DNA of 64,000 nt, from assembly GCF_022662105.1 (NCBI RefSeq), contig NZ_JAKMCP010000009.1, positions 1-64,000 of the forward strand. Reading direction: 5' to 3'. Made by a program: the position numbers and the translations under genes. The notes beneath the pieces are model-generated. The model was given only the letters and a program-made list of their open reading frames with translations, had not been told where the DNA came from and searched no databases. Source of the DNA: Aestuariivivens sediminis (GTDB lineage Bacteria; Bacteroidota; Bacteroidia; Flavobacteriales; Flavobacteriaceae). The first letter of the stretch is position 1; the number at the start of each line of letters is the position of its first letter. Shown here in pieces: positions 22,574 through 28,879 of the stretch.

Positions 22574-24799
<2,226 letters not shown>

Positions 24800-24984
24800 T
24801 TAAAAAATAGGGTCAATGAGGTGATTACAACCAGTGCCTTTTTTGGCGTTGCGAATATACAAAAAAATGGGAGTTATTAAGGTTGATTTTTAAATGAAAA
24901 CGCAATAAAACAAGCTTATTAACAGGAATACAAAAAAACTTAGGAATCAATAGGCCATCGATAAAAAATGCTTAGTTCAGGTAA

Positions 24985-25038
24985 TAAAAAAACAAAAGCC
25001 ATATCACTGTAGAAGTTCATCTACTCTGACATGGCTTT
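24985..25038 (-). terminator. Terminator of the structured RNA
   Basis: AAAGCCAT (25038-25031) pairs with ATGGCTTT (25002-24995). An inner GTAGA/TCTAC stem adds length, and the hairpin is followed on the minus strand by TTGTTTTTTT. Confidence 0.85.
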
Positions 25039-25480
25039 CTTTGAAATAACATTCCGTGACCTATTTGGCATTGCTGCCAAATCGATTTGAATTTTCATCA
25101 AATCTTTTCAATTCAAGTGCAGTTATTTCAATGAAGCATTCGTGCAATTTTCAAAATGTATTGACGTATTACTCTAAATGCTCCAGTTTAATTGTTTTTC
25201 TTGATGCTTATTCTACAATGCACTCGTTTGCACGTTTGTATTGATTGTAAGCATTGCTCATAGTACAGTACTACTGCTTTTCTGAGCTTTCAACCACACC
25301 AGTTGCCATTTGCTTGCGCACCTGGGACTTTTTGTGATATCATGGTTCTCTGCTCACCCACGCCTACACGCGGCACATCCGAACCTCAAAAAACAACTAG
25401 TTTTAAAGAACGTTACTTTAATTTAGAATCGCGGTAAATCCATTTTTTACGTGGAACCAAAACGAGTTTGTCCAAGATTC
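24990..25480 (-). ncRNA. Unidentified structured RNA (~490 nt) between rplS and icd
   Basis: No convincing ORF occupies this stretch. On the minus strand it has a TTG-N19-TATATTAG promoter (25515-25486) and ends in a strong terminator (25038-24995 plus T-run). Stems visible by eye, as plus-strand coordinates, are: 25041-25050 with 25122-25131 (10 bp, perfect) enclosing two hairpins, 25064-25083 (8 bp, GCAA tetraloop on the minus strand) and 25084-25104 (7 bp); 25204-25210 with 25248-25254 (7 bp); GCTCA 25257-25261 with TGAGC 25282-25286; GGTTC ~25344 with GAACC ~25380; and a TGC-GCAA-GCA mini-hairpin near 25315. GNRA loops on this strand only support the direction. I found no tmRNA tag, RNase P GAAAGTCC-type core, SRP or 6S feature. 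Confidence 0.6.
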
Positions 25481-25485
25481 TTCTG

Positions 25486-25515
25486 CTAATATAGAGCAAG
25501 AATTTAAATTTGCAA
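25486..25515 (-). promoter_or_regulatory. Promoter of the structured RNA
   Basis: On the minus strand: TTG (25515-25513), 19 bp, TATATTAG (25493-25486). This fits the Bacteroidetes consensus TTG-N19-TAnnTTTG with one mismatch. Expected transcription start is near 25480. Confidence 0.65.
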
Positions 25516-25574
25516 ATTTTTCACCTTCTTAAATATCAACCAGTTATGAACCATAGTTATTAACAATAGTTAAT

Positions 25575-25606
25575 AAAAAAAGAGCCTTAATGTTAAAGGC
25601 TCTTTT
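25575..25606 (-). terminator. Terminator of rplS
   Basis: AAAAGAGCCTT (minus strand, 25606-25596) pairs with AAGGCTCTTTT (25588-25578), 11 bp, followed by more T. It lies 26 bp past the rplS stop, so the RNA below is a separate transcript. Confidence 0.88.
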
Positions 25607-25631
25607 ATCATGTGTTGAGACTAAAAATGGT

Positions 25632-25982
25632 TTAGTGTCTACGTTCTTGAATTCTTGCTTTTTTACCGGTTAATCCTCTAAAATAGAAGATTCGTGCTCT
25701 GCGCACCTTACCACGTTTGTTTACTTCAATCTTTTGTAAAGCCGGTAAATTGATTGGAAAAATACGTTCTACACCAATAGAACCGGACATTTTTCTAATT
25801 GTAAACGTTTCTGAAGCACCGGATCCTCTTCTTTGAATTACGGTTCCTCTAAAAAACTGGGTACGGGTTTTATTGCCTTCCTTTATTTCGTAATACACCG
25901 TAATCGTATCACCAGCTCCAAATTCCGGCAAGTCTTTTTTGGTTACAAACTCGTCCTGAACATATTTTACTAAAGATTCCAT
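25632..25982 (-). CDS. rplS: 50S ribosomal protein L19
   Basis: The product is 116 residues from the ATG at 25982, the normal L19 length. Signature stretches are GDTITVYYEIKEGNKTRTQFFRGTVIQRRGSG, GVERIFPINLP and the C-terminal GKVRRARIFYFRGLTGKKARI. A 13-codon in-frame extension to 26021 exists but does not match L19 proteins. It is monocistronic, with a consensus promoter at 26055-26084. Confidence 0.96.
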   Translation of the reverse strand: MESLVKYVQDEFVTKKDLPEFGAGDTITVYYEIKEGNKTRTQFFRGTVIQRRGSGASETFTIRKMSGSIGVERIFPINLPALQKIEVNKRGKVRRARIFYFRGLTGKKARIQERRH

Positions 25983-26054
25983 ATCTTTAAATTTAAGTGA
26001 TTTATTCGAAACAACATGCACGATTTTCGCCAGAGGTTAATCCGAAATTGGGTG

Positions 26055-26084
26055 CAAAAATAATTATTAATTACCAATGTACAA
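26055..26084 (-). promoter_or_regulatory. Promoter of rplS
   Basis: On the minus strand: TTG (26084-26082), exactly 19 bp, TATTTTTG (26062-26055). A perfect match to the Bacteroidetes primary sigma consensus. The implied 5' UTR to the ATG at 25982 is about 65 nt. Confidence 0.85.
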
Positions 26085-26185
26085 CACTTTGTGTCAGTTT
26101 TTTTAATTCTTTTTCAGGATCTCAAATTTATGTAATCGGCAATTTTTCGTAATTTTAAAGCGGTTAATCTAAACTTGGATTTATT

Positions 26186-26560
26186 ATGAAAAACAACATG
26201 GTAGGCTGGTTTGAGATACCAGTTGATGATATGGATCGTGCGAAACAATTTTATGAAACCGTTTTTAATGTGGAAATAGAAATCCATAACTTTGGTGGCG
26301 TATTAATGGGTTGGTTCCCCGATAGAGGGGAAGCCCATGGTGCCCAGGGCACATTAATTAAGCAGGACTCTTATATCCCCAGTAAGGAAGGGGTTCTCAT
26401 TTATTTTATGAGTGATGATGTTCAGCATGAATTGGATAAAGTGGTGGCCTCCGGGGGTGAGATTTATCAGCCCAAAACACAGATTTCACCGGAATACGGT
26501 TACATGGCTGCTTTTATTGATAGTGAGGGCAATCGCATTGCATTACACTCAAAACACTAA
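26186..26560 (+). CDS. VOC (glyoxalase/bleomycin-resistance) superfamily protein
   Basis: The 124-residue single-domain protein has the vicinal-oxygen-chelate pattern: opening VGWFEIPVDDMDRAKQFYETVFN, a central beta strand set, and closing GYMAAFIDSEGNRIALHSKH. The terminal Glu/His positions of metal ligands are partly kept (GNRIALHS). Substrate cannot be inferred. It is transcribed divergently from rplS. Confidence 0.85.
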   Translation: MKNNMVGWFEIPVDDMDRAKQFYETVFNVEIEIHNFGGVLMGWFPDRGEAHGAQGTLIKQDSYIPSKEGVLIYFMSDDVQHELDKVVASGGEIYQPKTQISPEYGYMAAFIDSEGNRIALHSKH

Positions 26561-26641
26561 ACAAGGGACTAATCTATAATTGTAATACATGATAGTAACG
26601 GTTCTCCCGGGTTCAACCTGTGGTGTTATGATCCATAGTTT

Positions 26642-26649
26642 TACTTTTG
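26642..26649 (+). promoter_or_regulatory. -7 element of trmH, close to the start codon
   Basis: TACTTTTG fits TAnnTTTG. Transcription would begin around 26655-26657, coinciding with the start codons at 26654 and 26657, so the mRNA may be leaderless. The -33 region is weak (CTGTGG near 26619). Confidence 0.5.
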
Positions 26650-26653
26650 TACT

Positions 26654-27310
26654 ATGATGGATGTTGCATTATTAAACTATTTAGAGACCTATTTAACCGA
26701 ATCACGAAAAGAAAAATTCCTGAACGTCTTATCCCAACGTACCAAGCATTTTACGGTAGCTATTGAAGATGTATACCAACTGCACAATACAAGTGCGGTT
26801 ATGCGAAGTTGTGACGTATTTGGGATACAGGAACTGCATGTTATTGAGGAGCTTAATACCAAACAGATTGACAGGGAAATTGCCATGGGCTCCCAAAAAT
26901 GGGTAGACATAAACCGTTATCGTTCGGTTAAGGATTGTTTGGCGCATTTGCGAGGACAGGGCTATCGGATTGTGGCTACCTCGCCTCATGTGACCCATGG
27001 TGAATTAAAAGATTTTGACGTTACCCAAAAATCGTGCTTTTTCTTCGGTAAGGAAACCGAAGGTCTTTCGGACGACGTGCTGAATGCCGCTGATGGTTTT
27101 ATCAGGATTCCCATGGTGGGGTTTGCGGAGAGTTTAAATATTTCTGTTTCAGTGGCCATTATTTTGCACGATACCATGACCAGGCTGAAACAAACCACAA
27201 CTGAATGGCAACTCGGTGAAGCCGAAAAATTACAAAAACGAATGGACTGGTGTAAAACAACCATTAAAAGCTATCAAAGGATTATAGATCGGTATTACGA
27301 TGCTTTATAA
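26654..27310 (+). CDS. trmH: tRNA (guanosine-18-2'-O)-methyltransferase-type SpoU protein
   Basis: The 218-residue SPOUT-fold protein has motif 1 HNTSAVMRSCDVFGIQELHVIE, motif 2 FFFGKETEGLSDDVLNAADGFIRIPM, motif 3 GFAESLNISVSVAIILHDTMTRL, and the TrmH-type C-terminal extension (MDWCKTTIKSYQRIIDRYYD). TrmH methylates the 2'-OH of G18 in tRNA. Two ATG codons in tandem (26654, 26657) are possible starts. Confidence 0.88.
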   Translation: MMDVALLNYLETYLTESRKEKFLNVLSQRTKHFTVAIEDVYQLHNTSAVMRSCDVFGIQELHVIEELNTKQIDREIAMGSQKWVDINRYRSVKDCLAHLRGQGYRIVATSPHVTHGELKDFDVTQKSCFFFGKETEGLSDDVLNAADGFIRIPMVGFAESLNISVSVAIILHDTMTRLKQTTTEWQLGEAEKLQKRMDWCKTTIKSYQRIIDRYYDAL

Positions 27311-27333
27311 AAGGGTCATGCCCTCCCTAAAAC

Positions 27334-27374
27334 ATCAAGAGGCATATGCTGCATATACCTCTTGATTGTGTTTG
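27334..27374 (+). terminator. Terminator of trmH, probably bidirectional
   Basis: ATCAAGAGG (27334-27342) pairs with CCTCTTGAT (27358-27366), with an inner ATATG/CATAT extension, followed by TGTGTTTGTTTT. It lies between the convergent trmH and cytochrome c genes and can fold on both strands. Confidence 0.75.
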
Positions 27375-27391
27375 TTTTAATGGAATTGACG

Positions 27392-28879
27392 CTACAGGCA
27401 CATCATATAAGCGGTTAAGGCGTCCTTCTCTTTTTTATTCAATTGTAATTCTAATATCAAATTGAAAAACTCTACGGTATCATCGAGGGTCGGGAGTCGA
27501 CCATCATGAAAATATGGAGGAGAATCTTTAATCCCCCTTAACGGAAATGTTTTTATAGGGCCTTCTGGTCTTCCCTTATAAAAGCGCTCTACCTTGAGAT
27601 CGTGCAAATAGTCATCCACAAAGGCCGGTCCATAGTGGCATGAGGCACACTTCGCCTTCCCTTTAAATAACCGTTCGCCCAGTAATTCCTGCTCAGTAGA
27701 TTTGCTCGGTATTAAATTACTCATGGCATCCAATTTCGGTGCAGGAGGAAAATCGAGCATAGAATTAAAATCACCCATTCTATTCGATAAGGCCCTTTGT
27801 AAACCCCTTTGCCCGATATGTTGTTACATGCCCGGGTCTCCATCGAAATACTCTTCTACTTCGGCAAAATGGTCCATGCTACGAATGGAACGTTTGGACG
27901 CCAATTGCATGGCATTGAAATTACCGCGCATCGTTGGGGTATCTACCCGCAGTCGGGCTAAATTGGGCCGGCTGTCCGGGCCCAGTTCAATGGCGCCATT
28001 GGTATGGCCGTTAACATGACACGAGAAACAGGATACTCCCGCACTGGGTTCTAAGGTCACTCTGTGCGGCGTATGGTTAAACCAGGTTGTTGGAGTTGGT
28101 GTTAATAATTCATTTAAGCCTTCCATTTGTTCCGGTGTAAGCAAGCCATCAAAAATCTCATAGTAATTGGCCAGTGTTACTTCTCGTCCTTTGGTGACGT
28201 CCCCCAGCTCCTTGTGATTGGAGAGGAACATGGGTGGCGGAAATTCCGGCAGATAGTCATCCGGGAAATCATGATCCACATCTATCCTGGCATGCTCCGG
28301 GTGCACCTCATTCCAGGTGTCCGGAAATAACATATGTGCCGTGGTTTGTAAGGGATGCGCCAAAGGTTTATACGGGAACAGATCCTTGTTTTTAATGTCG
28401 TCTGCCGAATAGGCAGATAAGGCTTCAAAGGAAGAAATGCCGCGAGGGAGTCTGGCAATGGGGCCTTTCATTATAGGCTTTCTTCCGCCGGACATCACTT
28501 TGCCTTCATACACCTCACCGTTGAAGTCGTAACGTGAATTCATATAGGTTCTAACATCGGCCATTAACTCCGGCTTCTGTTTTTTGTGGAAGGCTACCCA
28601 TTCGTCCCAGCTCATGGGTAATTCTGGTGTGGTAAAGGAGCTTTTTCCCTTTCCACCATAGCGCCATAAATCAAAAGGGGTCCGTTCTCCCTTTTTTAAA
28701 TTAGGGTAAGGCAGCAGGGAATCGATATGCCCGGCCCCCAAACCATAATCGGGTTCTTCATAATCTTCAATAACGGCACCCGGTGATTGTAAGAGATGTA
28801 ATTTGTTATTGATGATCTGGAAACTTAAAAGTAAAATGCTTCCAATGGCTATCATAAATGGAATTCGAATCTTTTTCAT
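27392..28879 (-). pseudogene. Di-haem cytochrome c (MauG/peroxidase-like), interrupted by an in-frame TAA
   Basis: Two open segments, 28879-27824 (351 residues) and 27823-27392, are in the same frame and separated only by one TAA at 27826-27824. Reading continues smoothly as EYFDGDPGM-stop-QHIGQRGLQRALSNRMGDFN. Together they would make a ~495-residue protein with an N-terminal membrane anchor/signal (IRIPFMIAIGSILLLSFQI) and two haem motifs, CFSCH in the first part and CASCH in the second. Homologues of this periplasmic family oxidise small molecules or reduce peroxide; substrate unknown. A CAA-to-TAA change would explain the stop. An ATG at 27778 could restart translation of the second half, giving a 128-residue single-haem fragment. 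A Crp-type palindrome lies 54 bp upstream. Confidence 0.8.

Follow-up and report, generated by a model that had tools for sequence, protein, structure and literature searches.

Results

A unit with its own end signals between rplS and icd

The window, a 64,000-nt stretch of contig NZ_JAKMCP010000009.1 of Aestuariivivens sediminis, holds the RNA gene on its minus strand, between the genes for ribosomal protein L19 (rplS) and NADP-isocitrate dehydrogenase (icd). Read along that strand, the order is rplS, its terminator, a promoter, a body of ~440 nt, a strong terminator and icd. The features of the locus are:

26012-26039, minus strand: L19-Flavobacteria ribosomal protein leader (RF03130), a known element ahead of rplS (Rfam, 44.2 bits)
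25632-26021, minus strand: rplS, the upstream anchor gene (open reading frame; relatives anchored by tblastn)
25575-25606, minus strand: rplS terminator (sequence)
25486-25515, minus strand: promoter of the RNA gene, TTG-N19-TATATTAG, with the TTG at 25513-25515 and TATATTAG at 25486-25493 (sequence)
24986-25479, minus strand: predicted transcript of ~490 nt (sequence and folding), its start placed ~7 nt past the -10 box
24986-25038, minus strand: terminator of the RNA gene, the most widely conserved stretch (sequence and relatives)
22574-24784, minus strand: icd, the downstream neighbour (open reading frame; tblastn; named in the original prediction)

The name rplS was based on the original prediction and on the match to the L19-Flavobacteria leader, a motif reportedly described in a 2017 paper; the icd product is presumably of the monomeric type, judged by its 736 aa. 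Divergent from rplS, the plus strand of the window encodes what by eye are a VOC/glyoxalase-like protein (26186-26560) and an RNA-methyltransferase-like protein (26654-27310).

A minus-strand promoter of the form TTG-N19-TATATTAG and separate terminators for rplS and for the unit below it had been predicted, and all of these signals are present. The position of the promoter was assessed in 134 distinct copies, chosen by the terminator pattern of the RNA gene with rplS 300-800 nt ahead, after removal of duplicates (copies identical over the last 350 nt). A promoter-like site ending 120-165 nt past the rplS match was found in 100 of the 134, and the same search at six control offsets returned 2, 5, 16, 4, 27 and 12 per 134 homologues. 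The consensus of the main sigma factor of Flavobacterium psychrophilum is reported as TAnnTTTG (PMC9723704). From these signals we infer that the RNA would be transcribed from a promoter of its own and stop at its own terminator.

The RNA is kept at the same site in relatives

At the DNA level, 13 of 59 other genomes in a 60-genome set matched the RNA gene at E <1e-15. The three genomes of the same genus all matched, at 84-85% identity, and none of 23 genomes of other families did so at E <1e-15 (best E 0.003). With tblastn anchors, rplS and icd were both found in 23 of 31 tested loci, and the terminator lay between them in 23/23. The terminator pattern occurred in 146 of 299 family genomes, with 0 matches to a backward control pattern in the rows listed; in 30/30 loci fetched from this search, rplS lay ahead of the terminator. 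In one family sample of good-quality genomes the pattern was present in 121 of 236 genera. A scan of contigs for the same pattern gave at least 118 stretches; 105 of the 118 matches listed had rplS and/or icd on the available stretch (both in 76), and the remaining 13 include chance matches in Clostridium, Corynebacterium and Butyrivibrio. The terminator was located 413-748 nt past the end of the rplS match (143 measurements). Carriers among named cultured genera include Zobellia, Maribacter, Polaribacter, Winogradskyella and Tenacibaculum.

We further analyzed genomes without the exact pattern: 73 were searched for rplS, 70 loci were viewed (66 from family genomes, each of a different genus, and 4 from other families) and 3 were left out. 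A hairpin like the rplS terminator was mostly found 23-42 nt past rplS at these loci. A variant terminator 393-737 nt past rplS was present in 34 of the 66 family genomes, under the rule of a stem of at least 10 with one mismatch allowed and a start of GCCAT, TCCAT or CCCAT, 380-760 nt past rplS; L223 and L283 are doubtful members of the 34, and L206, L207, L210 and L290 are carrier-like loci outside it. L223 has a long non-coding stretch past rplS with promoter-like and terminator-like ends and a different terminator sequence, possibly a far-diverged form of the RNA. The rplS-icd gap was just 181-291 nt in 10 of the 66, and other genes follow rplS in some others. The RNA was absent past rplS in the 4 genomes of other families. 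It was also absent from L256 (genome G153), where the rplS-icd gap is 291 nt; this genome belongs to the genus commonest among the matches listed, which from listing frequency alone we guess might be Flavobacterium. Since the gene is missing at the site in many genera, it is not essential family-wide.

Two contigs titled as other lineages, L097 (Chlorobiota) and L132 (Candidatus Rokubacteria), carry rplS, the RNA and icd in the flavobacterial order and are probably misassigned in those bins. A gene that by eye is pentapeptide-repeat-like is inserted in the rplS-icd interval of L010, L013, L014, L197 and L225; at L225 the RNA is not recognisable there.

Two groups of copies were aligned. Group A comprises 58 copies obtained via the motif TCAATACAT.TTGAA from the Algibacter-Winogradskyella side and includes the window copy; its alignment holds 57 sequences, with L147 omitted. 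Group B comprises 19 copies obtained via CAATCAATGG from the Maribacter-Zobellia side, extended to 34 by nhmmer. Because the groups were chosen by those motifs, invariance of the motif columns is circular.

Predicted fold of the window copy

The predicted structure of the window copy, from the 5' to the 3' end on the minus strand, consists of a 5' hairpin, a multibranch domain, an arm and a junction domain ahead of the terminator:

25404-25420, minus strand: 5' hairpin H1, UAAAG UAACGUU CUUUA (conservation and sequence)
25405-25411, minus strand: GUUCUUU element inside H1
25192-25396, minus strand: 5' multibranch domain, closed by long-range helix P1 (helix counts, 57 sequences)
25388-25396/25192-25200, minus strand: P1
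25381-25385/25344-25348, minus strand: P2
25368-25372/25359-25363, minus strand: P3
25334-25338/25293-25297, minus strand: P4
25318-25325/25306-25313, minus strand: P5, with a GCAA loop at 25314-25317
25284-25287/25256-25259, minus strand: P6
25248-25254/25204-25210, minus strand: P8
25232-25234/25225-25227, minus strand: P9
25133-25184, minus strand: arm P10/P11/P12 with the hexaloop UACAUU
25180-25184/25133-25137, minus strand: P10
25168-25172/25144-25148, minus strand: P11
25161-25164/25151-25154, minus strand: P12, invariant in an alignment whose rows were selected by that motif
25041-25131, minus strand: 3' junction domain, to which the group-B three-way junction corresponds
25122-25131/25041-25050, minus strand: P13, the 10-bp perfect closing stem
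25084-25104, minus strand: inner hairpin of the 3' domain
25064-25081, minus strand: inner hairpin of the 3' domain with a GCAA loop

The elements read from the single sequence in the original prediction recur in this fold. The 10-bp stem 25041-25050/25122-25131 enclosing two hairpins was found at those positions, the further stems correspond to conserved helices (25204-25254 to P8, 25256-25287 to P6 and 25344-25385 to P2/P3), and the two GCAA loops said to form on the minus strand lie in the hairpin 25064-25081 and in P5. The minimum free energy of 24985-25485 on the minus strand was -144 kcal/mol (z = -5.35), a value reached in 0 of 100 shuffles. Folded without the terminator, the window copy (L001) gave z = -2.6, and z was below -2 in 28/28 copies picked for diversity (mean -3.9; 24 shuffles each). 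The fold of the RNA region is beyond chance.

Compensatory changes within groups

In group A, 94.3% of cells in the 3' half were paired and 30 of 40 pairs were altered on both sides; in the 3' domain of group B, aligned separately, the corresponding values were 93.2% and 18 of 26. Relative to shuffled alignments, covariation was higher in group A (0.348 versus 0.199; slid structures, at most 0.084) and in group B (0.395 versus 0.225; slid, at most 0.122); none of 500 shuffles reached the observed value in either group. The scored structures were derived from the same alignments and so are favoured over the shuffled and slid controls. Compensatory change thus exceeds both kinds of control in groups A and B, the behaviour looked for in a structured non-coding RNA. 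The 5'-domain helices of group A were 88-99% paired, with double changes in every helix (57 sequences). The 11 top-scoring column pairs of group A are all base pairs: helices of the 57-sequence model contain 10 of them or are directly extended by them, and the remaining one belongs to helix P7 of a 14-sequence model; one of the 11 is paired in just 38 of 52 rows, and non-pairing column pairs appear too below the eleventh rank. Under a strict phylogeny-aware, parsimony-based null, only 3 pairs pass at E <=0.05 (57 sequences). Compensatory changes are seen in nearly every helix.

Architecture persists while the body diverges

Groups A and B have in common H1, P1, an arm, the terminator and the junction with two hairpins, together with the closing stem GAAAUAG/CUAUUUC. 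A model of group B, R1, found 0 of 5 group-A loci, and its sole match among 77 loci was L210, which was absent from model building and was recognised at the three-way junction (E 8.9e-5); L210 is the short form of one genus, with the second terminator just 239 nt past rplS. A model of group A, R2, found 0 of 7 group-B loci. Among 79 loci, R2 matched 24 further copies at the site that belong to neither group, 19 with E <1e-4; since it also gave 4 opposite-strand matches (E 0.31-0.61), its 5 weakest site matches (E 0.0044-0.052) are soft. When the order was searched under strict filters, R2 matched 11 of 395 genomes, each of them in the same family; R1 also matched 11 of 395, ten within that family and one outside it at E 0.042. 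Each matched genome had a single match in this 395-genome search, and the window's own genome likewise gave one strong match.

Because the models do not cross between the groups, the kinship of A and B rests on architecture, short shared sequence, position, promoter and terminator. For the Aquimarina, Aequorivita and Gilvibacter types, the link rests on position, promoter, 5' element and terminator. The promoter, 5' hairpin, 3' junction and terminator are retained although the body diverges widely.

Screening against known RNA families

Positions 23000-27500 were scanned with Rfam 15 at E up to 5, and the only match above cut-off was the L19-Flavobacteria leader. Within the RNA stretch itself there was just a sub-threshold match to a plant microRNA on the opposite strand; weak matches to rimP, MIR396, RT-14 and others were below their cut-offs. 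When 20 homologous loci were compared with Rfam at E up to 1, nothing in the RNA exceeded the cut-off.

The original prediction could not match the RNA to tmRNA, RNase P, SRP or 6S RNA, and the scan agrees. RNase P RNA (RF00010) and tmRNA (RF00023) have no covariance match here; the genome's copies are at C10:172576-172895 and C5:223603-224000, and 6S-Flavo RNA (RF01685) is a separate gene at G000:C7:40241-40367. These three identities were rejected because the genome encodes each elsewhere. 6S RNA (RF00013) gave no match across the window's genome, and SRP RNA no covariance match in this stretch.

Discussion

Our best reading is that the rplS-icd interval holds a new RNA family of Flavobacteriaceae with no Rfam match above cut-off: a stand-alone, single-copy, structured non-coding RNA gene of ~490 nt, which in our sampling is confined to Flavobacteriaceae. 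The original prediction had likewise proposed a large non-coding RNA of this family, possibly undescribed, and the Rfam result, the conservation at the site, the covariation and the lack of a conserved open reading frame in the relatives compared support it. That the structured RNA gene is real we regard as close to certain. That its product is a folded, protein-binding RNA acting in trans has, in our estimate, about an even chance; the two statements taken jointly are the reading towards which we lean. That the gene is single-copy and changes fast in sequence under a shared architecture suggests a folded RNA with protein partners in trans. In the proposed mechanism, the RNA made between its own promoter and terminator would work in trans as a folded molecule, most likely as a regulatory RNA that binds protein or as an RNP scaffold. 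Its functional core is likely the 3' three-way junction, since the group-B model still recognises the junction in the short form L210; the remainder outside the junction varies fast in sequence.

A base-pairing regulatory sRNA, whose exposed loops (the UACAUU hexaloop and the H1 loop) would pair with mRNAs, is a possible but doubtful alternative. The UACAUU hexaloop of arm P12 is a candidate base-pairing contact, and its motif, UCAAUACAUNUUGAA, recurs exactly in 7 of 9 group-A-type loci not picked by it directly, although these are R2 matches and R2 contains the motif. Regulation of protease mRNAs by an sRNA has been reported in the family, and mRNA pairing has been predicted for Rfp18 of F. 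psychrophilum (PMC9723704). Against this, the RNA is ~490 nt long versus a median of 176 bp for the independent transcripts described in that report, the UACAUU loop is clade-specific and absent from the group-B consensus, and perfect complements to 16S rRNA are at most 7 nt (5 segments, 3 genomes). It is fairly improbable that the unit is a Nus-factor element, in which the 5' GUUCUUU would be a boxA that binds NusB/S10 and either shields the long untranslated transcript from Rho or, as a decoy, draws these factors off the rRNA operons. GUUCUUU resembles boxA of E. coli and is the most conserved part of the 5' element, its successive bases being kept in 135, 148, 148, 137, 150, 146 and 139 of 152 best matches, counts that are inflated because each row was picked as the best match to the element. 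The window's own assembly, G000, rated 99.96% complete, gave no match to 16S rRNA, and rRNA leaders were therefore taken from 9 relatives; by eye, 19 leaders hold a similar, GTTCATTAACATATTG-like sequence. However, 150 of the 152 best matches have U as the fifth base, where the 19 leaders have A (they read GTTCAT there), and GUUCUUU is part of a hairpin whose stem changes in sequence but remains paired. Four leaders of one relative (G017) additionally hold GTTCTTTACA, which lies 292-293 nt before 16S, upstream of the apparent promoter.

Size and GNRA-type loops would also suit a homo-oligomeric ornate RNA like OLE, ROOL or GOLLD, as would AACGUU, a self-complementary sequence that many copies carry in the H1 loop. 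The Rfam result speaks against this reading, which we consider quite improbable, and a kissing-loop role of AACGUU is weakened because some members of the family have a different loop there yet retain GUUCUUU. The position of the RNA between icd and rplS on the same strand would fit a cis-acting icd leader or rplS trailer. The RNA has its own promoter-like site and terminator, and icd starts >500 nt past the terminator at 14 of 125 loci while the RNA still adjoins rplS; both observations argue against leader function and make this reading very unlikely. An mRNA for a small protein is less credible still: sense open reading frames reach 28 aa in the window copy, but none of at least 12 aa has both its start and its stop preserved across the 6 relatives compared, in line with the earlier view that the unit holds no convincing open reading frame, and a coding role was rejected.

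Having weighed these explanations, we return to the folded, protein-binding RNA acting in trans. As a tentative extension, which we think rather unlikely in its full form, the RNA may represent a new trans-acting class that dates from the ancestor of Flavobacteriaceae and has a small three-way-junction core, with several hundred flanking nucleotides rewritten from genus to genus while the overall architecture is kept; it might act on the transcription or translation machinery via the 5' GUUCUUU hairpin, and would have been lost in some genera, perhaps Flavobacterium. Large RNAs with strong covariation tend toward specific functions. To our knowledge few RNAs of Bacteroidota are understood, so that a widespread orphan RNA is a direct entry to RNA biology there. 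Since carriers include cultured genera, the RNA is open to testing in them, and its quick sequence turnover under a common architecture makes it a good case for the evolution of RNA structure.

Comparison with known systems

At the same locus, the L19-Flavobacteria leader lies at the opposite end of rplS and is an unrelated cis leader of 29 positions. 6S-Flavo is likewise a Bacteroidetes-specific non-coding RNA, but a separate gene of 108 model positions. OLE, ROOL and GOLLD, which are lineage-limited and without assigned function, are large structured bacterial RNAs, as is the RNA described here; they differ in that their models, presumably included in Rfam, gave no covariance match in the window stretch at E up to 5 or in the 20 loci at E up to 1. 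Ornate RNAs such as these are reported to form homo-oligomers (PMC12286853). We found no published description of an RNA between rplS and icd in the literature covered, supplements aside, and the main text of the F. psychrophilum report mentions neither rplS nor icd (PMC9723704). Rfp18 and other independent transcripts described there are, like the present RNA, newly described, structured and conserved in Flavobacteriaceae (PMC9723704). An RNA restricted to Thioalkalivibrio, according to its source text, differs in that lineage, and resembles the RNA described here in being longer than 350 nt, confined to one lineage and without assigned function, with a complex covarying structure.
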